Shown: positions 9,001-59,201 of the stretch, piece after piece
Layout: each line of letters starts with the position of its first letter
How positions within the stretch are numbered: position 1 is the stretch's first letter
NCBI RefSeq assembly: GCF_048128805.1
Contig: NC_136016.1
Location: forward strand, 9,669,501 to 9,733,500
Reading direction: 5' to 3'
Source: Centroberyx gerrardi
Taxonomy: Eukaryota; Chordata; Actinopteri; Beryciformes; Berycidae
Length of the DNA: 64,000 nucleotides
Notes under the pieces: model-generated
Seen by the model: only the letters and a program-made list of their open reading frames with translations
Told to the model about the DNA's origin: nothing
The model's database searches: none
Position numbers and translations under genes: made by a program

Positions 9001-10126
9001 CTCTGATGCTGCTGAGTCTCTTGGAGACGATCTTGGTGACGTATCTGATGGAGAAAGACTCTCCATCCCAGGAGAACCTCAGCCTGAGGGACGACTGTGA
9101 GGACGAACAGGACAAAGACAAATCTCACAACTGTGACAGAGGTGAGACCCACTCTGGCAGAGGAAAGCTGATAAAATCCTGTACCAGGACAAGGATTACT
9201 GGGTGCTCCATCAATTCTGTTTTATAAATTGTGGGCTTTAGAGCTTTTCCCGATACTCTTTCTGGTGTTAATAGTTCTAATACATATGGTTTTAATATAT
9301 GATGATGAATCATATTGCTTGTGTTATCATTCATGTGTCAAACCTATGTTTTCAGAGGAGAAAAGACGGACTCTCTGTGCCTGCATCTGTGATGTGTCTG
9401 GTGGCGACGCATCATGTGAACTACTGCCTGTGGCTGAGGAGGTTAGGATTGTGTTGCTGTTGAATTATTTAACTTTTGTTATACTTCTTTGTTGAACCCC
9501 ATATCGTGTATCGAATCTCTACGATTCGATACGCGATATGGGGTTCATGATATGATACAACCATGATACGATGTAATAAATAAAAGTTTGACTGTGCAGA
9601 ATTATGTTTATTTCTGAGTCACAAATCTTTCTAGCGATGGCATTGGCTTCCTAGAATGTAAAAAACTATTTAAAAATGTTATTACAAAGTGCAAATAATA
9701 TAATTTGGATGGAGAGCTTGTGAAATTGTGATGGGTCATTTGTGATTACTACAGCAGAATAAAATGGAGCTAATATCACAATTAATTTTTCTGCCCCACG
9801 ATGCGTATTGTCACAGTTTTGTATTGCAGTAGATTGAATTTCGACATATCGTTCCATCCCTAACTTCAACGTTTTTCTGCCAAATCCATTCTGTGCAGGT
9901 TGGTAACAGCAGACAGTCAGGTGAGTCTGGTGTGTTACTGCTGATCCTGGAGGAGCTGAGGGAGCTGCAGAAAAGCCTGGCTCTGCTCCTCAGCAGCAAG
10001 CAGGAAGCAGGGAAGACCGGCTACTGGACCAGAGTGGCCAGAAGAATCAACACAGCTTTCTTCATTTTCTATGTCATCGCTGTCTCTCTTTTTCTAATCC
10101 TCATCTTTATAGGATGGAGCATTTAG
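6030..10126 (+). CDS. Channel gene 1: 5-HT3 receptor-like Cys-loop cation channel subunit, 10 exons, 458 aa
   Basis: Exons: 6030-6069, 6812-6972, 7141-7185, 7409-7518, 8092-8261, 8389-8549, 8674-8884, 8977-9141, 9356-9441, 9899-10126. All phases match, giving 1377 nt with no internal stop. The start is the first of two ATGs before a hydrophobic signal peptide. The product is a plasma-membrane pentameric channel subunit. Visible parts: N-glycosylation sequon N32; conserved Trp79 (loop D position); loop A Trp110/Glu118; Cys-loop C151-C165 around FPFD; M1 about 237-261; M2 about 268-289 with Glu266 (-1'), Leu276 (9') and Asp287 (20'), the cation-selective pattern; M3 about 301-324; MA-like amphipathic helix about 395-415; M4 about 436-456. 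The loop B Trp of 5-HT3A is replaced by Ala172, so a serotonin ligand is doubtful. Intron 3 uses the weak donor gttagt. Family certain; exact orthology not. Confidence 0.9.
9494..9862. mobile_element. Decayed MITE-like insertion in intron 9 of gene 1
   Basis: Intron 9 follows the gene 2 intron up to about 9490 and then departs. The inserted sequence starts with a near-perfect hairpin (9494-9546: 24-nt arms, 5-nt loop, one mismatch) and ends with atatcgttccatccctaa, which resembles the end of a fish non-autonomous DNA transposon. No clear target-site duplication was found, so the family is not assigned. Confidence 0.45.
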
Positions 10127-14774: not shown

Positions 14775-17700
14775 ATGATGCGTGCTGGTTTCCTCCTCCT
14801 GCTCTTCCTCACAGGTAAGACAAAAGTTCATTATGATTCAGTGTGAGGTGCTGATTAAATATTCCCCTCTGTTTTGGATGCATGCCACAGTACGCCTCCT
14901 TCCTAAACTTTCATGCCATATTAGATATGAAAGATGACTGTCAGTCCTTTCAGTCAAATATCAGTCCATTTGCTTTATCATTAAGTCCATTTGTCTGACT
15001 TGAGAAAAGGATTAGTGATGTTGTTAATTGCTGCCATACTGTTGCTTTGCCATTTTTGAGACAGACATAAAGTAACTGATGGTACAAAGCAAACCAAACT
15101 TGATGGGTTTTTTTTCATGCTTGACTTTGATAGATGACAGAACAGGGTTAATTGTGGTGACAAAGGAAATGAGAGTAATCGCTATATATGAGAGGTCAAA
15201 TGTTTGTATTTAGCTGATAAATTACTGACTGCCACCAGACATCTGCCGATACATTAGACATAGACTGATTACATGCAAAAGTTGATATTTTTATTACAAA
15301 TATATTACATGAAAAGTGGAGCAGCTGACAACATCATCAGGGTCAGAAATTAAAGGTTGCTAAATGTTTGCTGTAGCTGCTAAATCTTTTTTTTTTGTAC
15401 CAGCCACTTCTACCAACCACAGATTTTATTGCGCCTTTATGGAGACACTGTGTCTTTTTTTTTTTACACTAGATAAGGTATCTTCTCAGAAAGTGTGCAG
15501 TTACCAGGACGTTCTAGACTACCTGAACCTGACCAGAGGTAATGAGGCATTCACGTCGACGCGACCCGTTCTGGACCACACACACCTCACCACAGTACAA
15601 CTGGATATCTCCCTCTATTCTATTCTAGCTGTGGTAAGCCGTAAACTCATGCAGTGTGTATGTGTGCATGGATGTATATGTGTGCTTTTAATTTAAACTG
15701 TGTGTAGTTTGCGTGCTGATCTGTGCTCGAGTGTAAAGTGTGTGTTTGTTCATAGACTGAGAAAATCCAGACCTTCGTTCCTTTCATCTGGATTGAGATG
15801 GTGAGTATGTAATCTATACTCTTTCCCATGCTTCCCACTCTTACTGTCTTCTTAGTGTTGGAATTGTTGGCTATTTACATATAACACAACTGTTTATATT
15901 CTATTTTTTGTTTTTATTTGCTTTTGTTGTATTTTCTCCCCTGCTGTATCCTATGACTTTTGCTCCTGCAACAAACCAATTTCCCCATAGGTTTCAGTGA
16001 AGTATAATCTAATCTTATCTTGGTTTTGACTTGAGATATCCCTTTCGATCTCTCTCCTCTAGTGGAAAAGCTCTTTCTGCCAACATGACTTCACTATTAC
16101 GGCCTTTTCATCATATCCTGCTGTGTTTTTTCTCCCCGACACAGCACAATCTGTTTCAATCTCTTCTCTTGTTTCGTCTTTCTTGATCATTTTCTCCCGC
16201 CTTGCTGCTGCAGAATTGGAACAATGAGCTCATCTCCTGGGACCCTTCGCAGTTTTGTGGAATCAGTCAGATTGCTCTTCCCCAAAATATGCTGTGGAAG
16301 CCAGATCTCTTCATCTATGAGATGTGAGCACGCGCACACACATACAGCACACACTAATTCATGATGAGCTGATGACTATGCTATACATTGCCTATTTTGT
16401 AGGAAGCTGAACTTGAGAGTATTTGTAGTACAGTACATGACAGCTGCATTGAGTAAAGTATGAGTGACTCAACTGAAATGTAATATGGCTAATATTGGTA
16501 TACGCTCTCTTTGTTTAGCGAGCAAACTGACCTTATGTTTAGACTGACTTAAGTACACAGTGTGGTTATTATAGTCATTGAATTCACAGATTTATTTAGC
16601 AGAAGTTTGTTTCACCAGAAATGACTGCAGTGCATGGAAAAATGTGCTATTAATGGAACCTGATAATCCTATGTGTGTTAATATTTGTGTATGTGTGTGT
16701 GTGTATGTGTGTGTGTGTGCTCCCAGGACACAAAAGGATGAAACCATCCTAAACCCCTATCTGTATGTGACACACAAGGGAATTGTCTCCATTGAGGAAG
16801 ACCTGAAGGTGGTCAGCTCCTGTAAGATGGACGTCCACAAGTTCCCCTTCGACACACAGCGATGCAGCATCACCTTCAGCACTGTCATGTACACTGGTGA
16901 GTGACTGAACATTTGTATGTGTGATTTATCCACCTTAACTCGAACAACTTGGACCTTTCATTTGTAAGCACCAATAGTAAGCCTCCAATTTCTTCCTCCC
17001 TGCCTTCCTGGTTTCCTTTCATATCTCCCTCTCTCTGCTCCTCAGTCGATGAAGTGCGACTCATCCCTGTCTCCAACTCGTCTCGGGCCACACAGTCTTC
17101 TCTTGAGTTGATGCTGACCCAGGGAGAGTGGGAGTTCCTCAACCTATTAGTCACCAACGTCACTTTCAGCTTCAATCGAGGGGACTGGGATCAGATAATA
17201 TACACTGTACGCAACGCAAGAAGACATGGAGAAACAACGCTTTTGAATTCTAACAGCAAGCCCTTAAAGGAATGCTGTAAATTTTAGATGATTATTTTTC
17301 TTCACTACATACCTGTTGCATTAAGGCAACCCTTTAATAGACTCTTCTGTCACATTCATCATATTTACCTGAACATCATCCAGCCTGACCCTTGACCATC
17401 TCCTCCTAGATCACCATGAGGAGGAGGCCCCTCCTCCATGTTGTCAACTTCTTGTTGCCCATCCTGTTCTTCCTGAGTCTGGATCTGGCCTCATTCCTCA
17501 TCTCAGATCATCGAGGGGAGAAGCTGGGCTTCAAGGTCACCGTGCTGCTGGCCATCTCAGTCCTGCTGCTCATCTTAAACGACATCCTGCCCTCCATGTC
17601 CAACAAGACTCCACTCATAGGTACAACACACACTCACACATTTAGCTTAACTGATTTCATATCAGCCATAAGAGTACGTCTATTTTATTTGTTTTCCTCC

Positions 17701-19857
17701 TCCCAGCGACCTACTGCATTGTGATTTTTGCTCTGATGCTGCTGAGTCTCTTGGAGACGATCTTGGTGACGTATCTGATGGAGAAAGACTCTCCATCCCA
17801 GGAGAACCTCAGCCTGAGGGACGACTGTGAGGACGAACAGGACAAAGACAAATCTCACAACTGTGACAGAGGTGATGAGGCTTATTATAACATACAGAGA
17901 AAGAGGAAAGGTGACAAAGAGGTTACAACCAAGTTATGCAGAAGTTTACATCCTCTCTAACTGATTCTGTATTTCCAACTAATCTCTATCCATTCCTGGC
18001 CCTGGATCTCTCATTACCTGATAATGTAATGTGATGCTAATATTCAAAACTGTGTAATTGCTCTGATTATTACACCTGCCATCAATATGATCTTGACAAA
18101 AATTACTACCTAAATGCATCCTAATTATTTAGTTGGTTGCAAACAACAACACAAGGTAGGAAATATATATCGCCATCATCATACATCTCTCTCAAACCCT
18201 TTTCTACATGTCCATTGCTGACCCTTTGAGTTTTTACTGGGTCAGTTTAATATAACCAACACTTTTGTATTTCCTCTCTTACGGTTGCTGTATTTTTCAC
18301 ATGAAATGTTACCAATATGGTATGGTAGGCACTCACTTACACACATCATTATTATTATTATTTGAAGCTGCTGGAGAACATCCTCTAAGTTTACTATGTT
18401 CCCAAATTCCCTCACCACTTTCAATCTAAACTCTGGATTCATACCATCTTTTCTGACGTCTTACCACAAGAGGGCGTGATCAGGCCATCTAGCCTGCATT
18501 GTCAGAGAGACAGTGGTTCGGACTGGCCTACATTTCCCACTGCTTTGAAGTTCCTCATTGTGTTTTAGTTAATTGGTCTCCTCCAGCAGGAAGAGGGAGC
18601 TCAGTCCTCACGCTTACAAAACTGATATGCAGCACTGATCATTTTCATAGCAGCACCTCTAGTTTGTAACAAAGGTAATTTTGTCCATGTTATCTGGTTA
18701 CGTTCCATCTTATAATGGTTTTACGGAGAGAATGAATACTCAGTAACTGTGTTTTTAGGTTGTTGGCTGTAATGCTTTTCTCAATACTCTGACTCAGGGT
18801 GTGCTGACGGTTATAAAACATGAATGGTGGTGAATTATGTTTCATGTATAACAACTAATGTGTCAGTCCTATGTTTTCAGAGGGGAAAAGACAGACTTGC
18901 TGTGCCTGCATCTGTGATGTGTCTGGTGTCAACACACCATGTCAACTACTGCCTGTGGCTGAAGAGGTTAGTATTGTGTTGCTGTTGAATTATGTAACTT
19001 TTGTTATACTTGTTGCCAGAGGTGGGGACTCGAGTCTTGACTTGATGCATGAAGAGAAGACTTGAGACTTGCCTTGACTTGGGTTCTGGTGACTTGGGAC
19101 TTGAGTTTGACTTGTACTCTGATGACTTGAAAAGGTTTCTAAAGTCTTGACAAAAGATCTTGTGTGTTTGTGTAAATGACTTGAAAGTGATCAGATTTGT
19201 TCCACCAGACAACTGAATTTAATTAATTTTATTTTCTCTGAATTTGTATGGAGTGATTGAATTTATTAAAGTTGAATCTGATTATAGAAATCAAACTCAT
19301 TATGCTCTTAAGTTTTTATCCTATTAAAACCATACTGCTTTGAAAAGTCCTAGATATTTAGTTAAGATATTAAATTGATACTGGACTCTTGATTTGTTCT
19401 GACTTGACTTGCTGTTCTACATTTAGACTTGAGACTTGACATTAATGACTTGGACTTGACTTGGTAATATACATTTAGATTTGGGACTTGACTTGAGACT
19501 TGTGCCTCAAGACTTGAGCAAAGTTGACTTGGTCACACCTCTGCTTGTTGCAAAAAATAAGTGTCAAATACAGTATCATCAGTCTTAGCAGGAGAATAAT
19601 CAACTTCAACATTCATCTACCAAATCCAGGTTGGTAACAGCAGACAGTCAGGTGAGTCTGGTGTGTTACTGCTGATCCTGGAGGAGCTGAGGGAGCTGCA
19701 GAAAAGCCTGGCTCCGCTCCTCAGCAGCAAGCAGGAAGCAGGGAAGACCGGCTACTGGACCAGAGCGGCCAGAAGAATCAACACAGCTTTCTTCATTTGC
19801 TATGTCATCGCTGTCTCACTTTTTCTAATATTCATGTGTATAGAATGGAGCATTTAG
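14775..19857 (+). CDS. Channel gene 2: 5-HT3 receptor-like Cys-loop cation channel subunit, 10 exons, 458 aa
   Basis: Exons: 14775-14814, 15473-15633, 15756-15800, 16214-16323, 16727-16896, 17046-17206, 17410-17620, 17707-17871, 18881-18966, 19630-19857; 1377 nt, open throughout. Domain plan as in gene 1: signal peptide, ligand-binding domain with Cys-loop C151-C165, cation-type M2 (Glu266, Leu276, Asp287), M3, Cys-rich cytoplasmic cassette, MA-like helix, M4. It is gene 1's closest relative: exon 8 is identical over 165 nt and exon 7 differs at about 6 of 211, yet exon 4 differs at about 25 of 110. The loop B Trp position is Val (FSTVMYT). A hAT-type MITE lies in intron 9. Gene 3 starts 641 bp after its stop. 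The two pseudogenes downstream derive from this gene type. Confidence 0.9.
19017..19543. mobile_element. hAT-type MITE rich in ACTTG repeats, in intron 9 of gene 2
   Basis: A 527-bp element with ends cagaggtggggac and gtcacacctctg (short inverted repeat cagaggtg/cacctctg). It is flanked by the perfect 8-bp duplication cttgttgc (19009-19016 and 19544-19551), diagnostic of hAT-like insertion. The interior is full of GACTTG/ACTTGAG subrepeats. Right-hand remnants of the same insertion, with the same right flank, persist in both pseudogenes (to 34885 and to about 54081). Confidence 0.85.
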
Positions 19858-20498: not shown

Positions 20499-22443
20499 AT
20501 GTGTATTGGTCTTCTTTTGCTACTCTTCCTCTCAGGTAAGCTATAATAATGTTCAGTATATTGCATGGTGTGTGAGGTGTTATCTGGAACGTTCTTGCAG
20601 TTTGGATGAATGATAAACTTCTTTCCCAAACATTCTGGTGATGAGTAGGAGTGCTGATGCTGAGGCTTGTTAACTTAATTAAACAGCAGTGCCTTTTCTT
20701 TATCACTTTATTATATACTGTCTTACTAAAAACTCTAAGGGTAAGAAACTGGAAAGATGGAATGGTTTTCTATGTTTCTATGCTCTGTTTTTTTTCCCAT
20801 TTGCATGCCGCTGTTTGGGTCCTGCAGAAAGGGTTTATGGTGATGAAACTAATCAGTAGCCACAATAAGACTTCCAGTGTGAAACTGTCAGCAGTAAATG
20901 TCTTGTTGACAAACATGTATTTCAGAGGTTTCTGATTAATACTGAATACCAAAAATTTAAAAAGTGAGAATTGCAACGGATGAATATGAAATTATCATTA
21001 TTTCTTTTCAAAATGACCTTTTAACAGCTTATATTTACAATCAAGGGCCATTAGATTGCATTAGATTAGAAGCATCTTGGGAGAACAGAATCAAGCTTTT
21101 AAACCCATAGCTGGGTAGAAATGCGTGCTGCTGGCCTTGATTTGATCAACATGCAACATTTGGTGGTATAGCAGCTCTAATGGAGAGCCTTAATTAAACT
21201 CAAAGGACTGTAAAATGCTCACATTTAACCATCAATCAGTGGATTAATATAGAGCGAACATCTCACATGTCTGCCAACGCCCAAACTGTTAGAACTCATA
21301 ATGGCCTCTCAGTGACCACAACCAGCACTACTTGAAAGGATTTTGGTTTTCAGAAGTGAGTGACTTTCAACCATGGATTCATACCCAGAGCAGGTAACAA
21401 TTTGCAGGGTGTCTGTAGGATAGGTTAATGCTGCGTACTTAGAATACTAGTACATAAATAGATTTTTTTTATGACAAAAATGCATTAAGTAACTGAGAGA
21501 GCACATAACTCTGACATCAAGGCAAATACAGTGGCAAGCAAATTGTAGTTTAAAAGCGAAATTTAGAGATGGAAAATCAGCGTCACATTTCCCAGTTAAT
21601 TCTACTGATGTTTTAAGAATATTTTCTCCCATAGAGAAACTGTGTTGATCTTTTGGCTGTAGATGGGGTGTCCTCTCAGAGTGGCTGTAGTTACCAGGAT
21701 GTCTTGAACTACCTGAACCTGACCAAAAGTAATGAGCTGTACACATTGACACGGCCCGTTAGGAACCACACACAACCTACAGTGGTAAATCTGCATGTCA
21801 CGCTCTATGCCATTCTAGATGTGGTAAGTGGTTTAAGGCTTTCAAATCATGTCCATTTGTCAGTGTATCTGTGTGTCTGTGTGTGTAAGTGTGTGTTGTT
21901 GTGTATAGCGTTAGTATGTTTATCTGTGCTTGAATATAGTTTGCTGCACAACAATTTTTAAGTGTTGATTTTTCAGTGACAATTACTTTGAGTTGTATTG
22001 ATGGTTTGTTGATATTTGCTTACTCACAGATTGAGATAGACCAGAGATTCGTTCCTTACATCTGGGTTGAGATGGTGAGTTCTCTCAGGGTGATTCACTT
22101 TGTTTAAAACAAATGATAACATGATGCATCTCTGACCTCTCACCCTGTTAGGAAACTCAAGTGTCTTTCTGGTTTTTTAAATGGCATCATCTCATCCATT
22201 TCTTTTTCTCTCAGTCCCCCATGACTATTGTCCCTCTTTATCATTTTCTTTTTTCTTTCATTGCTTTCATTTGTTGGGAATTTTCCTCTGGTTGTCTTCT
22301 GCAGATGTGGAAGAATGAGTACATCTCCTGGCAGCCGGATGCGTTCTGTGGAATCAATCGAGTTACTCTTCCTATTGAAGCTCTGTGGACGCCAGACATC
22401 AGTATTGCTGAGATGTAAGTGTGAATGTATGTGTGCGCACATG

Positions 22444-22481
<38 letters not shown>

Positions 22482-24653
22482 TATTACTTTGGATGTGAAA
22501 TGATGCAGTTACTATCAGACTCGTGCGAAGTCTCAGCAATAACTTGAGGATATTTTAAATCACATCAGAAGAGAACAACAGCACTGTTTTGATGTTGCCC
22601 CCATTTGAGGGTACAAAAAGTATTTAAACAGATTATGCGTATTCTTACTGTACAATGACTTCTAAAAGTCTGAAGCCCATAAACATCACCAGACTCTTGT
22701 CATATCCTCTCTTTGTAGACAGAGGGAAATGACTATATTGTTTACTTTCTGAATGTAGCATTCAATGCATTTATTTCATATCATATCACACTGTAGATTT
22801 AGTTATGCAGTATTCCATAAAGAAAGAGCCATCCATAATATACTGATACAAGCAAATTGCCATAATGTGTGTCTGTGTGTGTGTGTGTGTGTGTGCGTGT
22901 TTTTTCTTCTAGGACAGAGAAGGCTAAGACCTCTCCAAGTCTATATCTCTCCATTCGCAACAATGGGGAGGTCCTTATGAAGAACGACCTGGTGATGGTC
23001 AGCCGCTGCAAGATGAAAATCTACAGTTTTCCCTTTGACACCCAGAACTGTGACCTCACATTTAGCTCAGTCATGTACCCAGGTGAGGGAGTGGCAATCT
23101 TTGTGTCCAAGTGCGCCTGTCTGTGTGAGTGTGTATGTGCGTGTGCTGCAACAATTTTTATGGCTTATTGTCTACGTCACACACACACCACCAGGCACCC
23201 TGGGTTAGCTCATAATTTCCTTCTCTCCTGCCTCAGTCGATGAACTGCAGCTCCACTCACAGTTGGATAAAGAGTGGTATAAAATTCAGGGCGAGGACGA
23301 GTGGATGTTAGTCAGCCTGACAGTCGACCCTTTCAGTAGCAGCGGCTCAGAAGGTCATGGCAGCATCAAATACACTGTACGCATTACAAGATGGACACAT
23401 GAGCAGATTAGTGCAGATTAGTTGTTTTTTCCAACACAAATGCTAAACAGTTGCTTTGGCTGAATTTGTCAAACCCGCCTGAAGTCCATCCAGCCTGACC
23501 CTTGACCTTCTCCTCCTAGTTCACCATAAAGAGGAGACCCGTCCTCTACATCGTCAACTTCCTGTTGCCCATCCTGTTCTTCCTGTTTCTGGACTTGGCC
23601 TCCTTCCTCCTCTCAGACAGCGGGGGGGAGAAGCTGGGCTTCAAAGTCACCGTGCTGCTTGCTGTCACGGTGCTGCAGCTCATCCTCAACGACATTCTGC
23701 CCGCTACGTCCAACAGGATTCCACTTATAGGTAAAGAGCTCCGGCTCGGTCGTTCATATGAACAGGAACAGTACATACTGATACAGAGAGTATTATTTGT
23801 CTGTATTAATGATACTGCTTGCTCTTCACAGCGACCTACTGCATTGGGATTTTTTCTCTGATGCTGCTGAGTGTCCTGGAGACGATCTTGGTGATGTATC
23901 TGATAGGGAAAGACTCTCCATCCCAGGAGAAGGAGGCAGACGCTGGCTGCAGCCTGAGCGAGGACTGTGGAGACAAACAGGACAGGGGCAACTCCCATAA
24001 ATGTGACAGAGGTGAGACCCACTATAACAAAGAAAAAGAGGAACACTCATATATTGATGTGCCAGACCACAAAAAGACAGTAATCTTCCAGACAGTTATC
24101 AGGTCATAATGACTACCTTCAGTTATTTTCTGTCACATGCACACTTATAATACATAACGGTGAATCATATTATTTTGAATATGGTATAATCATCCTTATG
24201 TCAAACCTATCCTTTCAGAAGGGAATAAATGGACTCGCTGTTCATGCCTGTGCGATGTGTCTGGTGGCGACACACCGTCCGAACTGCTGTCGGTGGCCAA
24301 AGAGGTTAGGACGGGGTTGCACTTCAATTCTGGTTCACAAAAAGCTCAATGTCAAATGACTGCAATCTTAGCAGGGTCATAATCCACTTCATAAACCTTA
24401 ATCTACCACATGTCTGTTGCAGGGTAGTAGCAGCAAACTGACAGGAGAGTCCCATGGCTTGGAAAGTCTCTCCGAGGAGCTGAGGGAGCTGCAGAAAAGC
24501 CTGGCTCTGCTCCTCAGCAGCAAGGAGGAAGGAGGGAAGCCCGGCTACTGGACCAGAGTGGCCAAAAGAATCAACACAGCTTTCTTCATTTTCTATGCCA
24601 CAGCAGCCACTGTGTTTTTAGCCATCATCTTTAGAACATGGAGTCCTGCGTAA
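20499..24653 (+). CDS. Channel gene 3: 5-HT3 receptor-like Cys-loop cation channel subunit, 10 exons, 456 aa
   Basis: Exons: 20499-20535, 21663-21823, 22030-22074, 22305-22414, 22913-23082, 23237-23376, 23520-23730, 23832-24011, 24219-24304, 24423-24653; 1371 nt, open. The single ATG precedes a short Leu-rich signal peptide. Cys-loop C150-C164; cation-type M2 (Glu258 at -1', Leu268 at 9'); M4 ends in RTWSPA. Exon 6 is shorter than in genes 1 and 2 (140 versus 161 nt), which trims the loop F region. The loop B Trp position is Val (FSSVMYP). The gene differs from gene 5 at about 9 of 1371 nt by eye, with four amino-acid changes. Against gene 4 the pore exons match but the ligand-domain exons do not. 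Confidence 0.9.
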
Positions 24654-28352: not shown

Positions 28353-30015
<1,663 letters not shown>

Positions 30016-33750: not shown

Positions 33751-33800
33751 TAAGTGAGTTTAATACAGAATCAAGAAAGCTGCACTTTCAGTTTCCAATA

Positions 33801-35199
33801 AGGAAGACCTGAAGGTGGCAGCTCCTGTAAGGTGGATGTCCACAAGTTCCCCTTCGACACACAGCGATGCAGCATCACCTTCAGCACTGTCATGTACACT
33901 GGTGAGTGACTGAACATTTGTATGTGTGATTTATCCACCTTAACTTGAACAACTTGGACCTTTCATTTGTAAGCACCAATAGTAAGCCTCCAATTCCTTC
34001 CTCCCTGCCTTCCTGGCTTCTCTCCATATCTCCCTCTCTCCACTCCTCAGTGCGACTCATCCCTTCCTCCAACTCGTCTTGGGCCACACAGTTTTCTCTT
34101 GAGTTGCTTCCTGTTGCCCATCCTGTTCTTCCTGTGTCTGGATCTGGCCTCCTTCCTCATCTCAGATCATCGGGGAGAGAAGCTGGGCTTCAAGGTCACC
34201 GTGCTGCTGGCCATCTCAGTCCTGCTGCTCATCTTAAACGACATCCTGCCCTCCATGTCCAACAAGACTCCACCCATAGGTACAACGCACACTCACACAT
34301 TTAGCTTAACTGATTTCTTATTCATATCAGCCATAACAGTACGTAGTGATAAATAGTGTATTTTTTGGTCTTTTTTATTTGTTTTCCTCCTCCCAGCGAC
34401 CTACTGCATTGTGATTTTTGCTCTGATGCTGCTGAGTCTCTTGGAGACGATCTAGGTGACGTATCTGATGGAGGACTTGGGACTTGACTTTGTATTTTGA
34501 TGACTTGTCAAGTCTTGACAAAAGATCTTGTGTTGTGTTGTTGTGTGTAAATGACTTAAAAGTGATCAGATTTGTTCCACCAAACAACTGAATTTAAATT
34601 CTGTTCTCTGAATTTGTATGGAATGATTGAATTTATTGAAGTTGAAAGTTTTTATCCTATTAAAACCATATTGCTTTGAAAAGTCCAAGATATTTAGTTT
34701 TCTTTAAGATATTAAATTGATACTGGACTCTTGATTTGTTCTGACTTGACTTGCTGTTCTACATTTAGACTTGAGACTTGACATTAATGACTTGGACTTG
34801 ACTTGGTAATATACATTTAGATTTGGGACTTGACTTGAGACTTGTGCCTCAAGACTTGAGCAAAGTTGACTTGGTCACACCTCTGCTTGTTGCAAAAAAT
34901 AAGTGTCAAATACAGTATCATCAGTCTTAGCAGGAGAATAATCAACTTCAACATTCATCTACCAAATCCAGGTTGGTAACAGCAGACAGACAGGTGAGTC
35001 TGGTGTGTTACTGCTGATCCTGGAGGAGCTGAGGGAGCTGCAGAAAAGCCTGGCTCCGCTCCTCAGCAGCAAGCAGGAAGCAGGGAAGACCGGCTACTGG
35101 ACCAGAGCGGCCAGAAGAATCAACACAGCTTTCTTCATTTGCTATGTCATCGCTGTCTCACTTTTTCTAATATTCATGTGTGTAGAATGGAGCACTTAG
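33801..35199 (+). pseudogene. Channel pseudogene A (gene 2-type, exons 5 to 10 remnants)
   Basis: Remains: 3' part of exon 5 (33801-33901, with a 1-bp deletion before the first Cys of the Cys-loop); exon 6 start (from 34051, lacking a 9-bp piece) fused directly to exon 7 (to 34279), with the exon 6 end, intron 6 and exon 7 start deleted, which breaks the frame; the first part of exon 8 (34397 to about 34472), with an in-frame TAG at 34452-34454 replacing a Leu codon; and intact exon 10 (34972-35199). The exon 8 end, intron 8 and exon 9 are gone, joined into the ACTTG-rich MITE remnant (about 34473-34885). No signal peptide or N-terminal domain, so no functional channel. Confidence 0.9.
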
Positions 35200-35851
35200 A
35201 GATGACAAGAATGTTATATCATTGTTGGAGTTTTGTAAGCTTTACCAGTCACCTGATATATGTTCACCTGTATGTGTGACAGTTCATTTGGGTGAAAAAT
35301 GTCAACTAAAGTATTCACAGTTGTGTTGTTGTTCTTTCCCTGCTCTTAAGCAAGGCACTTAACAGTTGTTGTTTGGTGTATTGCATTTATTGTGATTGTT
35401 GCTTTGCTGTTTGCCCAGAACACATGGAGTGTATATTGAGATGCCATTCTCACCTGTCTTTGTGTGTTATTCTGTTCAACTTACTGCTCTCTACTGTGGC
35501 ACTATGCTGTTAAACATCATTATAGCCCAGTTTGCCCCTCAGTCTCTTTCCAACACAGCTCCTGCCTCCTCCTCTCCTATCAGGCCATTAAGAATTACTG
35601 TGATATCCGTTGTGGGAGTGACCGCTAACTTCAAATGCCTGTTACACTGACCAATAAAATAAAAAAAAAGGTTTGTCGTTCAATTTGCCCAGCCCTCCTG
35701 TAGTGTATAAGTGGCATTATTGCTGCAACAGACTTACTAACACTGTCAGACAGCAGGGGAAGGACACAGAGATACACATTTGCTCTCTCCTCACATAGAT
35801 TACACTTCACATGCTTCTCTACACACATACACACTCACAGGTGCAGTTATA
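35200..35851 (+). promoter_or_regulatory. Spacer and promoter of channel gene 4
   Basis: Near-identical to the 641-bp spacer before gene 3, including ccaataaaataaaa (AATAAA at 35653-35658) and the ggtttgtcgttcaatttgc block. Here the preceding gene is a pseudogene, so the sequence is presumably kept for promoter use. Confidence 0.45.
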
Positions 35852-38800
35852 ATGTGTATTGGTCTTCTTTTGCTACTCTTCCTCTCAGGTAAGCTATAAT
35901 ATTGTTCAGTATATTGCATGGTGTGTGAGGTGTTATCTGGAACGTTCCTGCAGTTTGGATGAATGATAAACTTCTTTCCTAAACATTCTGGTGATGAGTA
36001 GGAGTGCTGATGCTGAGGCTTGTTAACTTAATTAAACAGCAGTGCCTTTTCTTTATCATTTTATTATATACTGTCTTACTAAAAACTCTAAGGGTAAGAA
36101 ACTGGAAAGATGTAATGGTTTTCTGTGTTTCTATGCTCTGTTTTTTTCCCATTTGCATGCCGCTGTTTGGGTCCTGCAGAAAGGGTTTATGGTGATGAAA
36201 CTAATCAGTAGCCACAATAAGACTTCCAGTGTGAAACTGTCAGCAGTAAATGTCTTGTTGACAAACATGTATTTCAGAGGTTTCTGATTAATACCGAATA
36301 CCAAAAATTTAAAAAGTGAAAAGTGCAACGGATGAATATGAAATTATCATTATTTCTTTTCAAAATGACCTTTTAACAGCTTATATTTACAATCAAGGGC
36401 CATTAGATTGCATTAGATTAGAAGCATCTTGGGAGAACAGAATCAAGCTTTTAAACCCATAGCTGGGTAGAAATGCGTGCTGCTGGCCTTGATTTGATCA
36501 ACATGCAACATTTGGTGGTATAGCAGCTCTAATGGAGAGCCTTAATTAAACTCAAAGGACTGTAAAATGCTCACATTTAACCATCAATCAGTGGATTAAT
36601 ATAGAGCGAACATCTCACATGTCTGCCAACGCCCAAACTGTTAGAACTCATAATGGCCTCTCAGTGACCACAACCAGCACTACTTGAAAGGATTTTGGTT
36701 TTCAGAAGTGAGTGACTTTCAACCATGGATTCATACCCAGAGCAGGTAACAATTTGCAGGGTGTCTGTAGGATAGGCTAATGTTGCGTACTTTTTTTTTT
36801 ATGACAAAAATGCATTAAGCAACTGAAAGAGCACATAACTCTGACATCAAGGCAATTACTGTACAGTGGCAAGCAAATTGTAGTTTAAAAGCAAAATTTT
36901 GAGCTTGAAAATCAGCATTGCATTTCCCTGTTAATTCTACTGATGTTTTAAGAATATTTTCTCCCATAGAGAAACTGTTGATCTTTTGGCTGTAGATGGG
37001 GTGTCCTCTCAGAGTGGCTGTAGTTACCAGGATGTCTTGAACTACCTGAACCTGACCAAAAGTAATGAGCTGTACACATTGACACGGCCCGTTAGGAACC
37101 ACACACAACCTACAGTGGTATATCTGGATGTCACGCTCTATTCCATTCTAGATGTGGTAAGTGGTTTACGGCTTTCAAATCTGTCCATTTATCAGTGTAT
37201 CTGTGTGTCTGTGTGTGTTTATCTGCACTTTGTAAGTGTTGATTTTTCAGTGACAATTACTTTGAGTTGTATCAATGGTTTGTTCACTCATAGAGCTGCT
37301 ATGGCTCTAAAGTGTTTAGTTAACTGGTGGGTGCGGACACTCTCTCAGAGTTAAATTCACACTGATGATTTTGCTGTGTGGGGGTCATTATGCTGGTTGT
37401 GCTGCCATGTTTGCTGGCCTGAAAGATTCTGACACATATTTGTTTACTCACAGATTGAGATAGACCAGAGATTCGTTCCTTACGTTTGGGTTGAGATGGT
37501 GAGTTCTCTCAGGGTGATTCACTTTCTTTAAAACAAATGATAACACGATGCATCTCTGACCTCTCACCCTGTTAGGAAACTCAACTGTCTTTCTTTTTTA
37601 AAATGGCATCATCTCATCCATTTCTTTTTCTCTCAGTCCCCCATGCCTATTGCCCCTCTTTCTCATTGTTCTTGTTATTTACTTTTTTCTTTCATTGCTT
37701 TCATTTGTTGGGAATTTTCCTCTGGTTGTCTTCTGCAGATGTGGAATAATGAGTACATCTCCTGGGAGCCGGATGCGTTCTGTGGAATCTATGAAGTTAC
37801 TCTTCCTATTGAACTTCTGTGGAAGCCAGACATCAGTATTGCTGAGATGTAAGTGTGAATGTATGCGTGCGCACATGCACATGCACATGCACACACATAC
37901 ACACACACACATGTCTCAGCAATAACTTGAGGATATTTTAAATCACATCAGAACATAACTACAGAACAGTTTTTACATGTTGCCCCCATTTGAGGGTACA
38001 AAAAGTATTTAAACAGATTATGTTTCTATTTAACAAAATAGTAATTTTTATTGTGTAGCGTATTCTTACTGTACAATGACTTCTAAAAGTCTGAAGCCCA
38101 TAAACATCACCAGACTCTTGTCATACCCTCTTTGTAGACAGAGGGAAATGACTATATTGTTTACTTTCTGAATGTAGCATTCAATGCATTTATTTCATAT
38201 CATATCACACTGTAGATTTAGTTATGCAGTATTCCATAAAGAAAGAGCCATCCATAATATATTGATGCAAGCATAATCGCCATAATGTGTGTGTGTGTGT
38301 GTGTGTGTGTTTCCTTCTAGGACAGAGAAGGATAAGGCCCCTCCAAGTCCCTATCTCACCATTTACAGCAGTGGGGAGGTCTATGTGAGGAACGACCAGG
38401 TGATGGTCAGCAGCTGCAAGATGAAAATCTACAGTTTTCCCTTTGACACCCAGAGCTGCAGCCTCACATTTAGCTCAGTCATGTACTCAGGTGAGGGAGT
38501 GGCAATCTGTGTGTCCAAGTGCACCTGTCTGTGTGAGTGTGTATGTGCGTGTGCTGCAACAATTTTTATGGCTTATTGTCTACGTCACACACACACCACC
38601 AGGCACCCTGGGTTATCTCACTATTTCCTTCTCTCCTGCCTCAGTCGAGAAACTGCAACTCCGCCCGCTCGCCAACTCAAAAATGGCTACAGCGTGGTCT
38701 AAAATGATGATGCAGGGCGAGGACGAGTGGACGTTTCAGAACCAGGCAGTCGAGCCTTTAAATAGCAGCAGCCCAGAAGGTCATGACAGCATCAAATACA

Positions 38801-40119
38801 CTGTACGCATTACAAGATGGACACATGAGCAGATTAGTGCATATTAGTTGTTTTTTCCAACACAAATCCTAAAAAGTTGCTTTGGTTGAATTTGTCAAAC
38901 CCGCCTGAAGTCCATCCAGCCTGACCCTTGACCTTCTCCTCCTAGTTCACCATGAAGAGGAGACCCGTCCTCTACATCGTCAACTTCCTGTTGCCCATCC
39001 TGTTCTTCCTGTTTCTGGACTTGGCCTCCTTCCTCCTCTCAGACAGCGGGGGGGAGAAGCTGGGCTTCAAAGTCACCGTGCTGCTTGCTGTCACGGTGCT
39101 GCAGCTCATCCTCAACGACATTCTGCCCGCTACGTCCAACAGGATTCCACTTATAGGTAAAGAGCTCCGGCTCGGTCGTTCATATGAACAGGAACAGTAC
39201 ATACTGATACAGAGAGTAGTTATTTGTCTGTATTAATGATACTGCTTGCTCTTCACAGCGACCTACTGCATTGGGATTTTTGCTCTGATGCTGCTGAGTG
39301 TCCTGGAGACGATCTTGGTGATGTATCTGATAGGGAAAGACTCTCCATCCCAGGAGAAGGAGGCAGACGCTGGCTGCAGCCTGAGCGAGGACTGTGGAGA
39401 CAAACAGGACAGGGGCAACTCCCATAAATGGGACAGAGGTGAGACCCACTATAACAAAGAAAAAGAGGAACGCTCATATATTGATGTGCCAGACCACAAA
39501 AAGACAGTAATCTTCCAGACAGTTATCAGGTCAATTTGTGCAGAGGCCACTCCATTATTTTTATTTCTATCATAATGACTACCTTCAGTTATTTTCTGTC
39601 ACATGCACACTTATAGTACATAATGGTGAATCATATTATTTTGAATATGGTATAATCATCCTTGTGTCAAACCTATCCTTTCAGAAGGGAATAAATGGAC
39701 TCGCTGTTCATGCCTGTGCGATGTGTCTGGTGGCGACACACCGTCCGAACTGCTGTCGGTGGCCAAAGAGGTTAGGACGGGGTTGCACTTCAATTCTGGT
39801 TCACAAAAAGCTCAATGTCAAATGACTGCAATCTTAGCAGGGTCATAATCCACTTCATAAACCTTAATCTACCACATGTCTGTTGCAGGGTAGTAGCAGC
39901 AAACTGACAGGAGAGTCCCATGGCTTGGAAAGTCTCTCCGAGGAGCTGAGGGAGCTGCAGAAAAGCCTGGCTCTGCTCCTCAGCAGCAAGGAGGAAGGAG
40001 GGAAGCCCGGCTACTGGACCAGAGTGGCCAAAAGAATCAACACAGCTTTCTTCATTTTCTATGCCACAGCAGCCACTGTGTTTTTAGCCATCATCTTTAG
40101 AACATGGAGTCCTGCATAA
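35852..40119 (+). CDS. Channel gene 4: 5-HT3 receptor-like Cys-loop cation channel subunit, 10 exons, 462 aa
   Basis: Exons: 35852-35888, 36996-37156, 37454-37498, 37739-37848, 38321-38490, 38645-38802, 38946-39156, 39259-39438, 39685-39770, 39889-40119; 1389 nt, open. Cys-loop C150-C164; exon 6 is 18 nt longer than in genes 3 and 5, adding six residues near loop F. Exons 7-10 differ from gene 3 at only about 4 of 708 nt. Exon 5 differs at 21 of 170, changing 16 amino acids with a single silent codon change. One change in exon 8 turns a cytoplasmic Cys into Trp (HKWDR). Intron 2 has about 130 bp of extra sequence (37281-37440). It is likely a subunit with altered ligand recognition but the same pore. 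Confidence 0.9.
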
Positions 40120-52870: not shown

Positions 52871-52941
52871 TATATGCCGAAGTTCAACAGTTTAAGTGAG
52901 TTTAATACAGAATCAAGAAAGCTGCACTTTCAGTTTCCAAT

Positions 52942-54393
52942 AAGGAAGACCTGAAGGTGGCAGCTCCTGTAAGGTGGACGTCCACAAGTTCCCCTTCGAC
53001 ACACAGCGATGCAGCATCACCTTCAGCACTGTCATGTACACTGGTGAGTGACTGAACATTTGTATGTGTGATTTATCCACCTTAACTCGAACAACTTGGA
53101 CCTTTCATCTGTAAGCACCAATAGTAAGCCTCCAATTCCTTCCTCCCTGCCTTCCTGGCTTCTCTCCGTATCTCCCTCTCTCCACTCCTCAGTTGATGAA
53201 GTGCGACTCATCCCTTCCTCCAACTCGTCTTGGGCCGCACAGTTTTCTCTTGAGTTGCTTCCTGTTGCCCATCCTGTTCTTCCTGTGTCTGGATCTGGCC
53301 TCCTTCCTCATCTCAGATCATCGGGGAGAGAAGCTGGGCTTCAAGGTCACCGTGCTGCTGGCCATCTCAGTCCTGCTACTCATCTTAAACGACATCCTGC
53401 CCTCCATGTCCAACAAGACTCCACCCATATGTACAACGCACACTCACACATTTAGCTTAACTGATTTCTTATTCATATCAGCCATAACAGTACGTAGTGA
53501 TAAATAGTGTATTTTTTGGTCTTTTTTATTTGTTTTCCTCCTCCCAGCGACCTACTGCATTGTGATTTTTGCTCTGATGCTGCTGAGTCTCTTGGAGACG
53601 ATCTTGGTGATGTATCTGATGGAGGACTTGGGACTTGACTTTGACTTTGTATTTTGATGACTTGTCAAGTCTTGACAAAAGATCTTGTGTTGTGTTGTTG
53701 TGTGTAAATGACTTAAAAGTGATCAGATTTGTTCCACCAAACGACTGAATTTAAATTCTGTTCTCTGAATTTGTATGGAATGATTGAATTTATTGAAGTT
53801 GAATCTGATTATAGAAATCAAACTCATGATGCTCTTACCAAGTTTTTATCCTATTAAAACCATATTGCATTGAAAAGTCCTAGATATTTAGTTTTCTTTA
53901 AGATATTAAATTGATACTGGACTCTTGATTTGTTCTGACTTGCCTTGCTGTTCTACATTTAGACTTGAGACTTGACATTAATGACTTGGACTTGACTTGG
54001 TAATATACATTTAGATTTGGGACTTGACTTGAGACTTGTGCCTCAAGACTTGAGCAAAGTTGACTTGGTCACACCTCTGCTTGTTGCAAAAAATAAGTGT
54101 CAAATACAGTATCATCAGTCTTAGCAGGAGAATAATCAACTTCAACATTCATCTACCAAATCCAGGTTGGTAACAGCAGACAGTCAGGTGAGTCTGGTGT
54201 GTTACTGCTGATCCTGGAGGAGCTGAGGGAGCTGCAGAAAAGCCTGGCTCCGCTCCTCAGCAGCAAGCAGGAAGCAGGGAAGACCAGCTACTGGACCAGA
54301 GCGGCCAGAAGAATCAACACAGCTTTCTTCATTTGCTATGTCATCGCTGTCTCACTTTTTCTAATATTCATGTGTATAGAATGGAGCATTTAG
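52942..54393 (+). pseudogene. Channel pseudogene B (gene 2-type, exons 5 to 10 remnants)
   Basis: Same structure as pseudogene A: partial exon 5 (52942-53043, same 1-bp deletion), exon 6 start (from 53193) fused to exon 7 (to 53430) by the same deletion, 5' part of exon 8 (53548 to about 53624), exon 9 missing, MITE remnant (about 53625-54081) and intact exon 10 (54166-54393). Differences: it keeps the 9 bp at the exon 6 start that pseudogene A lost, keeps the exon 8 Leu codon that is TAG in A, and has lost the last base of exon 7 (…atag to …atat). The shared deletions show that both derive from one already broken ancestor. Confidence 0.9.
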
Positions 54394-55045
54394 AGATGAC
54401 AAGAATGTTATATCATTGTTGGAGTTTTGTAAGCTTTACCAGTCACCTGATATATGTTCACCTGTATGTGTGACAGTTCATTTGGGTGAAAAATGTCAAC
54501 TAAAGTATTCACAGTTGTGTTGTTGTTCTTTCCCTGCTCTTAAGCAAGGCACTTAACAGTTGTTGTTTGGTGTATTGCATTTATTGTGATTGTTGCTTTG
54601 CTGTTTGCCCAGAACACATGGAATGTATATTGAGGTGCCATTCTCACCTGTCTTTGTGTGTTATTCTGTTCAACTTACTGCTCTCTACTGTGGCACTATG
54701 CTGTTAAACATCATTATAGCCCAGTTTGCCCCTCAGTCTCTTTCCAACACAGCTCCTGCCTCCTCCTCTCCTATCAGGCCATTAAGAATTACTGTGATAT
54801 CCGTTGTGGGAGTGACCGCTAACTTCAAATGCCTGTTACACTGACCAATAAAATAAAAAAAAAGGTTTGTCGTTCAATTTGCCCAGCCCTCCTGTAGTGT
54901 ATAAGTGGCATTATTGCTGCAACAGACTTACTAACACTGTCAGACAGCAGGGGAAGGACACAGAGATACACATTTGCTCTCTCCTCACGTAGATTACACT
55001 TCACATGCTGCTCTACACACATACACACTCACAGGTGCAGTTATA
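54394..55045 (+). promoter_or_regulatory. Spacer and promoter of channel gene 5
   Basis: Near-identical to the spacers before genes 3 and 4, with AATAAA at 54847-54852 and the ggtttgtcgttcaatttgc block just downstream. Confidence 0.45.
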
Positions 55046-58000
55046 ATGTGTATTGGTCTTCTTTTGCTACTCTTCCTCTCAGGTAAGCTATAATAATGTT
55101 CAGTATATTGCATGGTGTGTGAGGTGTTATCTGGAACGTTCTTGCAGTGTGGATGAATGATAAACTTCTTTCCCAAACATTCTGGTGATGAGTAGGAGTG
55201 CTGATGCTGAGGCTTGTTAACTTAATTAAACAGCAGTGCCTTTTCTTTATCACTTTATTATATACTGTCTTACTAAAAACTCTAAGGGTAAGAAACTGGA
55301 AAGATGTAATGGTTTTCTGTGTTTCTATGCTCTGTTTTTTTCCCATTTGCATGCCGCTGTTTGGGTCCAGCAGAAAGGGTTTGTGGTGATGAAACTAATC
55401 AGTAGCCACAATAAGACTTCCAGTGTGAAACTGTCAGCAGTAAATGTCTTGTTGACAAACATGTATTTCAGAGGTTTCTGATTAATACTGAATACCAAAA
55501 ATTTAAAAAGTGAGAATTGCAACGGATGAATATGAAATTATCATTATTTCTTTTCAAAATGACCTTTTAACAGCTTATATTTACAATCAAGGGCCATTAG
55601 ATTGCATTAGATTAGAAGCATCTTGGGAGAACAGAATCAAGATTTTAAACCCATAGCTGGGTAGAAATGCGTGCTGCTGGCCTTGATTTGATCAACATGC
55701 AACATTTGGTGGTATAGCAGCTCTAATGGAGAGCCTTAATTAAACTCAAAGGACTGTAAAATGCTCACATTTAACCATCAATCAGTGGATTAATATAGAG
55801 CGAACATCTCACATGTCTGCCAACACCCAAACTGTTAGAACTCATAATGGCCTCTCAGTGACCACAACCAGCACTACTTGAAAGGATTTTGGTTTTCAGA
55901 AGTGAGTGACTTTCAACCATGGATTCATACCCAGAGCAGGTAACAATTTGCAGGGTGTCTGTAGGATAGGTTAATGCTGCGTACTTAGAAGACTAGTACA
56001 TAAATAGATTTTTTTTATGACAAAAATGTATTAAGTAACTGAGAGAGCACATAACTCTGACATCAAGGCAAATACAGTGGCAAGCAAATTGTAGTTTAAA
56101 AGCGAAATTTAGAGATGGAAAATCAGCATCACATTTCCCAGTTAATTCTACTGATGTTTTAAGAATATTTTCTCCCATAGAGAAACTGTGTTGATCTTTT
56201 GGCTGTAGATGGGGTGTCCTCTCAGAGTGGCTGTAGTTACCAGGATGTCTTGAACTACCTGAACCTGACCAAAAGTAATGAGCTGTACACACTGACACGG
56301 CCCGTTAGGAACCACACACAACCTACAGTGGTAAATCTGCATGTCACGCTCTATGCCATTCTAGATGTGGTAAGTGGTTTAAGGCTTTCAAATCATGTCC
56401 ATTTGTCAGTGTATCTGTGTGTCTGTGTGTGTAAGTGTGTGTTGTTGTGTATAGCGTTAGTATGTTTATCTGTGCTTGAATATAGTTTGCTGCACAACAA
56501 TTTTTAAGTGTTGATTTTTCAGTGACAATTACTTTGAGTTGTATTGATGGTTTGTTGATATTTGCTTACTCACAGATTGAGATAGACCAGAGATTCGTTC
56601 CTTACATCTGGGTTGAGATGGTGAGTTCTCTCAGGGTGATTCACTTTGTTTAAAACAAATGATAACATGATGCATCTCTGACCTCTCACCCTGTTAGGAA
56701 ACTCAAGTGTCTTTCTGGTTTTTTAAATGGCATCATCTCATCCATTTCTTTTTCTCTCAGTCCCCCATGACTATTGTCCCTCTTTATCATTTTCTTTTTT
56801 CTTTCATTGCTTTCATTTGTTGGGAATTTTCCTCTGGTTGTCTTCTGCAGATGTGGAAGAATGAGTACATCTCCTGGGAGCCGGATGCGTTCTGTGGAAT
56901 CAATCGAGTTACTCTTCCTGTTGAAGCTCTGTGGACGCCAGACATCAGTATTGCTGAGATGTAAGTGTGAATGTATGTGTGCGCACATGCATACACACAC
57001 ACACACATACACACACACACACACACACTCTTATTACTTTGGATGTGAAATGATGCAGTTACTATCAGACTCGTGCGAAGTCTCAGCAATAACTTGAGGA
57101 TATTTTAAATCACATCAGAAGAGAACAACAGCACTGTTTTGATGTTGCCCCCATTTGAGGGTACAAAAAGTATTTAAACAGATTATGCGTATTCTTACTG
57201 TACAATGACTTCTAAAAGTCTGAAGCCCATAAACATCACCAGACTCTTGTCATATCCTCTCTTTGTAGACAGAGGGAAATGACTATATTGTTTACTTTCT
57301 GAATGTAGCATTCAATGCATTTATTTAATATCATATCACACTGTAGATTTAGTTATGCAGTATTCCATAAAGAAAGAGCCATCCATAATATACTGATACA
57401 AGCAAATTGCCATAATGTGTGTCTGTGTGTGTGTGTGTGTGTGCGTGTTTTTTCTTCTAGGACAGAGAAGGATAAGACCTCTCCAAGTCTATATCTCTCC
57501 ATTCGCAACAATGGGGAGGTCCTTATGAAGAACGACCTGGTGATGGTCAGCCGCTGCAAGATGAAAATCTACAGTTTTCCCTTTGACACCCAGAACTGTG
57601 ACCTCACATTTAGCTCAGTCATGTACCCAGGTGAGGGAGTGGCAATCTTTGTGTCCAAGTGCGCCTGTCTGTGTGAGTGTGTATGTGCGTGTGCTGCAAC
57701 AATTTTTATGGCTTATTGTCTACGTCACACACACACCACCAGGCACCCTGGGTTACCTCACTATTTCCTTCTCTCCTGCCTCAGTCGATGAACTGCAGCT
57801 CCACTCACAGTTGGATAAAGAGTGGTATAAAATTCAGGGCGAGGACGAGTGGATGTTAGTCAGCCTGACAGTCGACCCTTTCAGTAGCAGCGGCTCAGAA
57901 GGTCATGGCAGCATCAAATACACTGTACGCATTACAAGATGGACACATGAGCAGATTAGTGCAGATTAGTTGTTTTTTCCAACACAAATGCTAAACAGTT

Positions 58001-59201
58001 GCTTTGGCTGAATTTGTCAAACCCGCCTGAAGTCCATCCAGCCTGACCCTTGACCTTCTCCTCCTAGTTCACCATGAAGAGGAGACCCGTCCTCTACATC
58101 GTCAACTTCCTGTTGCCCATCCTGTTCTTCCTGTTTCTGGACTTGGCCTCCTTCCTCCTCTCAGACAGCGGGGGGGAGAAGCTGGGCTTCAAGGTCACCG
58201 TGCTGCTTGCTGTCACGGTGCTGCAGCTCATCCTCAACGACATTCTGCCCGCTACGTCCAACAGGATTCCACTTATAGGTAAAGAGCTCCGACTCGGCCG
58301 TTCATATGAACAGGAACAGTACATACTGATACAGAGAGTATTATTTGTCTGTATTAATGATACTGCTTGCTCTTCACAGCAACCTACTGCATTGGGATTT
58401 TTTCTCTGATGCTGCTGAGTGTCCTGGAGACGATCTTGGTGATGTATCTGATAGGGAAAGACTCTCCATCCCAGGAGAAGGAGGCAGATGCTGGCTGCAG
58501 CCTGAGCGAGGACTGTGGAGACAAACAGGACAGGGGCAACTCCCATAAATGTGACAGAGGTGAGACCCACTATAACAAAGAAAAAGAGGAACACTCATAT
58601 ATTGATGTGCCAGACCACAAAAAGACAGTAATCTTCCAGACAGTTATCAGGTCATAATGACTACCTTCAGTTATTTTCTGTCACATGCACACTTATAATA
58701 CATAACGGTGAATCATATTATTTTGAATATGGTATAATCATCCTTATGTCAAACCTATCCTTTCAGAAGGAAATAAATGGACTCGCTGTTCATGCCTGTG
58801 CGATGTGTCTGGTGGCGACACACCGTCCGAACTGCTGTCGGTGGCCAAAGAGGTTAGGACGGGGTTGCACTTCAATTCTGGTTCACAAAAAGCTCAAAGT
58901 CAAATGACTGCAATCTTAGCAGGGTCATAATCCACTTCATAAACCTTAATCTACCACATGTCTGTTGCAGGGTAGTAGCAGCAAACTGACAGGAGAGTCC
59001 CATGGCTTGGAAAGTCTCTCCGAGGAGCTGAGGGAGCTGCAGAAAAGCCTGGCTCTGCTCCTCAGCAGCAAGGAGGAAGGAGGGAAGCCCGGCTACTGGA
59101 CCAGAGTGGCCAAAAGAATCAACACAGCTTTCTTCATTTTCTATGCCACAGCAGCCACTGTGTTTTTAGCCATCATCTTTAGAACATGGAGTCCTGCGTA
59201 A
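55046..59201 (+). CDS. Channel gene 5: 5-HT3 receptor-like Cys-loop cation channel subunit, 10 exons, 456 aa
   Basis: Exons: 55046-55082, 56209-56369, 56576-56620, 56851-56960, 57461-57630, 57785-57924, 58068-58278, 58380-58559, 58767-58852, 58971-59201; 1371 nt, open. It is a near-copy of gene 3: about 9 nucleotide differences by eye in the coding sequence, with four amino-acid changes (Gln to Glu and Ile to Val in exon 4, Ala to Asp at the exon 5 start, Ile to Met at the start of M1). Introns are also almost unchanged, which points to very recent duplication or gene conversion. Same Cys-loop (C150-C164), cation-type M2 and M4 ending as gene 3. Confidence 0.9.

Follow-up and report, generated by a model that had tools for sequence, protein, structure and literature searches.

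Genes 3, 4 and 5 of a tandem Cys-loop receptor array in the fish Centroberyx gerrardi are probably recent copies in which extracellular substitutions were fixed faster than the neutral rate, with a nearly common pore kept by recent duplication and gene conversion. The array lies in a 64-kilobase (64-kb) stretch of DNA, hereafter the window, which carries five intact ten-exon genes on the + strand and two truncated copies resembling gene 2. Each of genes 3, 4 and 5 encodes a whole channel subunit. After duplication, changes in exons 4–6, with hot places that include binding loops E, F and C, would have been fixed at more than the neutral rate in both lineages. The result would be at least three sensor versions in C. 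gerrardi on nearly one pore: gene 4; the protein P0001, which matches gene 4 at 95% and has no coding gene in the window; and genes 3 and 5 with the protein P0004. Elsewhere the copies would have been kept alike by recent duplication and gene conversion, the M1–M3 exons of genes 1 and 2 having been overwritten. The selected property may be what the subunit interface recognises, either a range of ligands or modulators, and the common pore may have been retained so that each sensor version drives the same cation current.

The disparity between sensor and pore is visible exon by exon. Between genes 3 and 4, exon 5 differs at 21 of 170 nucleotides (nt), with 16 amino-acid-changing codons and one silent codon, and exons 7–10 differ at 4 of 708 nt (1/211, 2/180, 0/86 and 1/231). 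Both counts reproduce exactly those of the original prediction, which also gave the limits of gene 4 correctly; the reading frames of genes 3–5 are intact. Exon 6, missed at that stage, surpasses exon 5: of its 140 aligned nt, 25 differ, giving 22 amino-acid-changing codons and one silent codon, and gene 4 is set apart from genes 3 and 5 by two in-frame indels, one of 12 nt and one of 6 nt. Exon 4 contributes six amino-acid-changing codons and no silent ones. The comparison of gene 5 with gene 4 is similar, with 20/170 nt different in exon 5 (15 amino-acid-changing codons, one silent). Exons 5 and 6 together differ at 46/310 positions between genes 3 and 4, compared with 9/297 in the neighbouring introns 5 and 6 (Fisher p = 3e-7). 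These per-region, unmasked counts took the start of exon 2 as 36999 rather than 36996.

Positive selection is well supported for one young pair, genes 3/5 versus gene 4. Over exons 2–6, genes 3 and 4 are separated by 54.5 amino-acid-changing (N) changes at 496.7 sites and 5.5 silent (S) changes at 127.3 sites. A pairwise codon model estimates omega, the ratio of N to S rates, at 3.55 (p = 0.0024) for this pair and 2.99 (p = 0.006) for genes 5 and 4; without the exon 6 indel stretch the estimates are 4.0 and 3.25, respectively. Introns 2–6 differ at 49/1105 positions between genes 3 and 4, and the S rate is equal to that of the introns (p = 0.82). The N divergence exceeds that of introns 2–6 (p = 4e-6), also when exons 4–6 are taken alone (p = 2e-9), and amino-acid-changing sites diverge approximately 2.5–4.4 times more than silent or intron sites. 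In exons 5–6, 10.6 N changes are expected at the intron rate and 42.5 are observed. When positions close to gaps or simple repeats are masked, the counts fall, to 18/726 (2.5%) in introns 2–6 and 11/155 in the tail of intron 1, and because the masked introns 2–6 are lower, the excess of N over introns grows. A mutation hotspot or GC-biased (guanine–cytosine-biased) conversion is rejected, as silent sites and introns take no part in the excess and strong and weak changes among the coding differences of the tract are balanced (21 versus 22). With the C. affinis protein P0005 as outgroup, the 46 ungapped sites comprise 18 derived in genes 3/5, 12 derived in gene 4, and 16 of unclear polarity.

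The noncoding sequence places this divergence within the gene. A change-point analysis of genes 3 and 4 delimits a tract of high noncoding divergence at 36765–38899 (62/1285 inside, 50/3979 outside), for which twice the log-likelihood ratio is 50.1; the highest value among 60 permutations is 19.4. The tract brackets exons 2–6, which encode the extracellular domain, and stops 47 nt before exon 7, which encodes M1. Between genes 5 and 4 the best divergent segment is shorter, at 36769–37983 (46/730 inside, 80/4544 outside), so the sharp boundary between sensor and pore rests on one comparison, that of genes 3 and 4. Either homogenisation has spared the tract, or the tract was imported. Duplicates of the RHCE/RHD type, which combine conversion with divergent selection, have a divergence peak around the selected exons between flanks that are alike. 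The same kind of peak is present here, with the difference that in the comparison with gene 3 its boundary is the sensor/pore border of a channel.

The original prediction ascribed the uniform pore to gene conversion, and the two groups of paralogues answer differently. For genes 1 and 2 the answer is clear, and the pore, in its M1–M3 exons, was overwritten by conversion: exon 7 differs at 6/211 positions, intron 7 at 2/86, and exon 8 at 0/165, compared with 27–54% in the remaining introns and 10/86 in exon 9. Silent divergence is 0.38 in exons 2–6 and 0.04 in exons 7–10, and silent and intron divergence collapse together over a tract common to both paralogues, from exon 7 to exon 8. In genes 3–5, with repeats masked, the divergence of the pore introns (4/353) resembles that of the flanks (15/1857 and 20/1235). 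Conversion specific to the pore was therefore set aside as unnecessary for these three genes; their pore is as young as the flanks, and the extracellular tract is the unusual part.

The changed residues were mapped on 5-HT3A numbering at 187 positions, gaps counted, of which 53 differ between genes 3 and 4. Within what we take to be the limits of the binding loops on 5-HT3A, changes affect 8/16 positions of loop E, 10/16 of loop F, 5/12 of loop C, 1/9 of loop B, and 1/8 of loop D. Loops E, F, and C thereby hold 23 of the 53 changed positions, and loop A (0/8) holds none. Genes 1 and 2 vary most in loops B (7/9) and C (7/12). The part of PMC5464333 consulted describes 33 residues that come within 5 Å of tropisetron or granisetron, judged from crystals of binding proteins and from docking models; 32 of these were mapped here. 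With one choice of perch pair, pooling four pairs of paralogues gives an odds ratio (OR) of 1.88 (p = 0.005) for changes at such contacts.

Replication in other fishes was assessed with 66 sequences, consisting of 61 of 120 listed proteins, picked by hand, and five proteins of the window; among the 59 omitted proteins are gene models that are fused or incomplete, and proteins from more single-copy species. The set yields 54 within-species and 2091 between-species pairs. At extracellular distances of 0.1–0.3, the median pore distance is 0.02–0.03 for within-species pairs (15, nine of them from C. gerrardi) and 0.13–0.14 for between-species pairs (526); above an extracellular distance of 0.3 this difference fades. 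Young paralogues of yellow perch differ at 38/206 extracellular and 0/97 pore positions, and those of snakehead at 18/206 and 0/97. The paralogues of these two separate lineages, Perca flavescens P0083, P0094, and P0111 and Channa argus P0118 and P0119, have extracellular domains that differ and pores that are the same or almost the same. Fast sensors and converted pores are indistinguishable from protein data alone, and the uniform pores of perch may reflect alternative splicing with common pore exons.

Several results weigh against faster-than-neutral change in the sensor, or against its location in the binding cleft. The codon-level test is limited to one young pair, in which genes 3 and 5 are non-independent. 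Positive selection had originally been read from exon 5; it stands for exons 2–6, where omega is above one and N exceeds the introns, but exon 5 taken by itself reaches p = 0.07, and it is the extracellular domain as a whole that carries the claim. Omega in exons 2–6 of genes 1 and 2 is 0.52, and in these extracellular exons long-term constraint rules. A strongly changed extracellular domain joined to an almost unchanged pore is seen in only three of 18 species with at least two copies, namely C. gerrardi, yellow perch, and snakehead, which belong to three orders. Between genes 3 and 4, the binding loops are weakly enriched in changes compared with the remaining positions (25/69 versus 28/118, p = 0.09), and published 5-HT3 ligand contacts are not enriched (9/32 versus 44/155). 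The pooled OR depends on which perch pair is used (1.88, 1.54, or 1.38, the last with p = 0.17) and is 1.0–1.6 without genes 1/2. The positions changed between genes 3 and 4 are also the more variable ones in the family as a whole (mean entropy 0.98 versus 0.56). A clustering of changes in the binding cleft is unproven, and the expectation that the variable sites would gather there is partly contradicted by the contact counts.

The array belongs to a family related to 5-HT3A that appears to have lost most of the serotonin site. In a PDB sequence search, the best match of gene 4 is 5-HT3A (E = 3.8e-58; 200.5 bits versus 147.8 for alpha-7), and 5-HT3A also heads the Foldseek matches listed for the predicted fold, taking the top 31 of 50 rows; the fold is a weak model with a mean pLDDT of 60.9 and a pTM of 0.47. 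The C. gerrardi proteins P0001, P0004, and P0120 pass the Pfam cut-offs for Neur_chan_LBD and Neur_chan_memb. The Cys-loop of gene 4 is CKMKIYSFPFDTQSC, with cysteines 13 residues apart and an FPFD motif, and the cysteines C150 and C164 are invariant in 37/37 aligned proteins. A glutamate precedes M2 in gene 4, as in 5-HT3A, and a glutamate at this place points to a cation channel. Of the aromatic box that binds serotonin (W90, Y143, Y153, W183, and Y234), genes 3–5 keep W90 alone; the substitutions relative to 5-HT3A are W183 to V, Y143 to S/T, Y153 to K/R, Y234 to H, and, in addition, R92 to E, with W90 and E129 kept. Among 111 relatives, those of 400–560 amino acids within the 120 listed database relatives, W183 is found in 0/109, Y153 in 0/109, Y234 in 1/111, and Y143 in 4/111, and W90 (110/110) and E129 (111/111) are kept. 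As far as the consulted text of PMC5464333 goes, neither of the two drugs tested there binds once W90C, E129C, or W183C is introduced. With most of the aromatic box gone, serotonin is an unlikely ligand of the fish family, and its '5-HT3A-like' members are best described as putative orphan receptors, predicted to be cation-type Cys-loop subunits. The functional label 'serotonin receptor' is rejected on the same grounds. The 111 relatives are mostly named 5-HT3A or 5-HT3A-like in databases, despite the absent loop B tryptophan.

Other processes could produce a divergent sensor on a uniform pore. Selection might have acted on subunit assembly, through the pairing of copies, or on escape from toxins or inhibitors rather than on recognition of outside chemicals, a reading that we consider unlikely but worth serious attention. 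Loops E and F sit on the complementary face of the subunit interface, the minus-face loops D/E/F change more than the plus-face loops A/B/C (19/40 versus 6/29, p = 0.025, a post hoc test with the loop limits assumed above), and the lack of contact enrichment between genes 3 and 4 points the same way. Yet loop D, another minus-face loop, is almost unchanged (1/8); loop C, which caps the pocket, has five of its 12 positions changed; and genes 1 and 2 are most variable in loops B and C. Ectopic conversion, in which gene 4 or the ancestor of genes 3/5 imported a block of exons 2–6 from an older, diverged paralogue, is improbable in our estimate. An import would suit the introns of the tract, which are also raised in the comparison with gene 3 and whose divergence ends just before M1. 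It would also suit P0001, a further copy whose extracellular domain looks like a mosaic of the gene 4 and gene 3 versions: its outgroup-polarised sites include six shared with gene 4, six shared with gene 3, and two that join genes 3 and 4. The alternation of P0001 between the two versions amounts to 13 runs, against an expectation of 19.6 (p = 0.018). A neutral import would, however, carry introns and exons alike, and introns 5 and 6 differ by 2–3% while exons 5 and 6 differ by 12–18%; masked introns 2–6 stand at 2.5%, although the intron 1 tail retains its higher count. An N over S ratio above one would in any case still require selection in the donor.

Relaxed constraint on redundant copies, or their decay to pseudogenes, would agree with the two truncated copies within the array and with an omega of 0.98 in the pore exons of genes 3 and 4, which is based on four changes only. 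This explanation is very improbable, since relaxation yields an omega of up to one and not of 3–4. Moreover, all indels are in frame and the reading frames intact, W90, E129, and the Cys-loop cysteines are conserved, and the pore exons of genes 5 and 4 have an omega of 0.14 (p = 0.015). An artefact of sequence assembly or alignment is hardly credible: genes 3 and 5 are indeed about 99% alike, and introns 2 and 4 contain gaps with simple repeats, but the gene 3 version is annotated separately as P0004 (three differences), gene 4 has its own relative in P0001, and omega survives dropping the indel stretch. Selection on the sensor of recent tandem copies, combined with duplication and conversion, remains the favoured account.

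Known systems provide several points of reference. 5-HT3A is the closest solved relative by sequence and by the weak predicted fold, and shares the glutamate before M2; the fish family differs in having lost most of the aromatic box and in forming tandem copies with diverging extracellular domains. Closest in kind are the octopus chemotactile receptors (CRs), described in the portion of PMC11526382 consulted as expanded tandem Cys-loop channels with diversifying selection on the extracellular domain, a changed transmitter site, and positively selected pocket residues. The tandem arrangement, the extracellular diversification, and the changed transmitter site are common to both systems. In contrast, the CRs descend from nicotinic receptors and the fish genes are closest to 5-HT3A, as judged by scores rather than by a tree. 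According to the same portion, selected sites concentrate in the CR pocket; for the fish genes the corresponding evidence is mixed, with no contact enrichment between genes 3 and 4 and a pooled OR that shifts with the choice of perch pair. The CRs serve taste by touch, and a comparable chemosensory role of the fish channels is speculative. A further atypical vertebrate Cys-loop channel is the zinc-activated channel (ZAC). The text available from PMC13036004 presents medaka olZAC as a zinc-activated fish channel equally similar to 5-HT3 and human ZAC, and that from PMC10513076 gives ZACN as exclusive to mammals. ZAC entries, including olZAC (8WGE), are absent from the 60 listed PDB matches, the presence of olZAC in the database searched being unconfirmed. 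The olZAC channel is probably of a different family from the fish array, and its existence indicates that fish have unusual members of the Cys-loop superfamily. No described fish expansion of such channels is found among the matches listed in the open-access literature searched. By analogy with the octopus, an acanthomorph 5-HT3-related channel might have turned independently into tandem, fast-diversifying ionotropic chemoreceptors, with pores left intact beneath a variety of sensor domains, the serotonin site discarded, and repeated re-expansion in the separate lineages of Centroberyx, perch, and snakehead; we regard this broader scenario as doubtful.

The layout of the array reflects repeated duplication of large units, and its features are collected in Table 1. 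The segments 19091–29474 and 53625–64000 are 98.8% identical, and 30016–37218 and 49156–56432 are 97.2% identical. A stretch of approximately 1 kb (about 26201–27266 in unit 3 and 60748–61807 in unit 5) occurs in both unit 3 and unit 5 but not in unit 4. It looks like an insertion common to the two closest copies, and its distribution supports the branching (3,5),4. In the truncated copies, the exon 5–6 part is closest to gene 2 (92–94%) and the exon 7–8 part to gene 1 (90–91%, with 88–89% for gene 2). Among the annotated C. gerrardi proteins, P0120, which is without exon 3, has a distance of 0.000 from gene 1 at the aligned extracellular and pore positions, and P0004 differs from genes 3 and 5 by 0.5–2.1% in the extracellular and pore parts. 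All three units also contain long tandem repeats spaced at 42 and 48 bp (27689–28797, 42066–43126, and 62230–63338), which are proline-rich when translated by eye, and 30100–33320 resembles by eye what may be a decayed retroelement pol region.

Table 1. Genes, exons, truncated copies, and conversion tract in the window
Feature	Position	Strand	Remarks
Gene 1 (G1)	6030..10126	+	Intact, older paralogue
Gene 2 (G2)	14775..19857	+	Intact, older paralogue
Gene 3 (A)	20499..24653	+	Intact, 456 amino acids
Gene 4 (B), Cys-loop receptor subunit, ten exons	35852..40119	+	462 amino acids; GT/AG junctions, frame intact
Gene 5 (C)	55046..59201	+	Intact, 456 amino acids; nearly identical to gene 3
Gene 4 exons 1–5	35852-35888, 36996-37156, 37454-37498, 37739-37848, 38321-38490	+	
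Gene 4 exons 6–10	38645-38802, 38946-39156, 39259-39438, 39685-39770, 39889-40119	+	
Gene 4 exon 5: loop E, Cys-loop, loop B	38321..38490	+	Gene 3 equivalent 22913-23082
Gene 4 exon 6: loops F and C	38645..38802	+	
Gene 4 exons 7–10: M1–M3 pore, cytoplasmic loop, M4	38946..40119	+	
Truncated gene-2-like pseudogene	33791..35204	+	Deletion fuses exons 6 and 7
Second truncated gene-2-like copy	52933..54398	+	Exon 6/7 junction identical by alignment
Conversion tract in gene 1: exon 7, intron 7, exon 8	8674..9141	+	Matches gene 2 17410-17871

The usual picture of vertebrate Cys-loop receptors is one of conserved proteins of the synapse. If confirmed, the array would provide a vertebrate counterpart to the octopus case, a family that lacks most of the serotonin site, expands in tandem, and alters its sensor exons faster than neutral. 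It would also offer channels in which the evolution of sensor and pore is already separated, and which would be suited to the construction of chimeras. For the annotation of fish genomes, the name '5-HT3A-like' does not imply a serotonin receptor.

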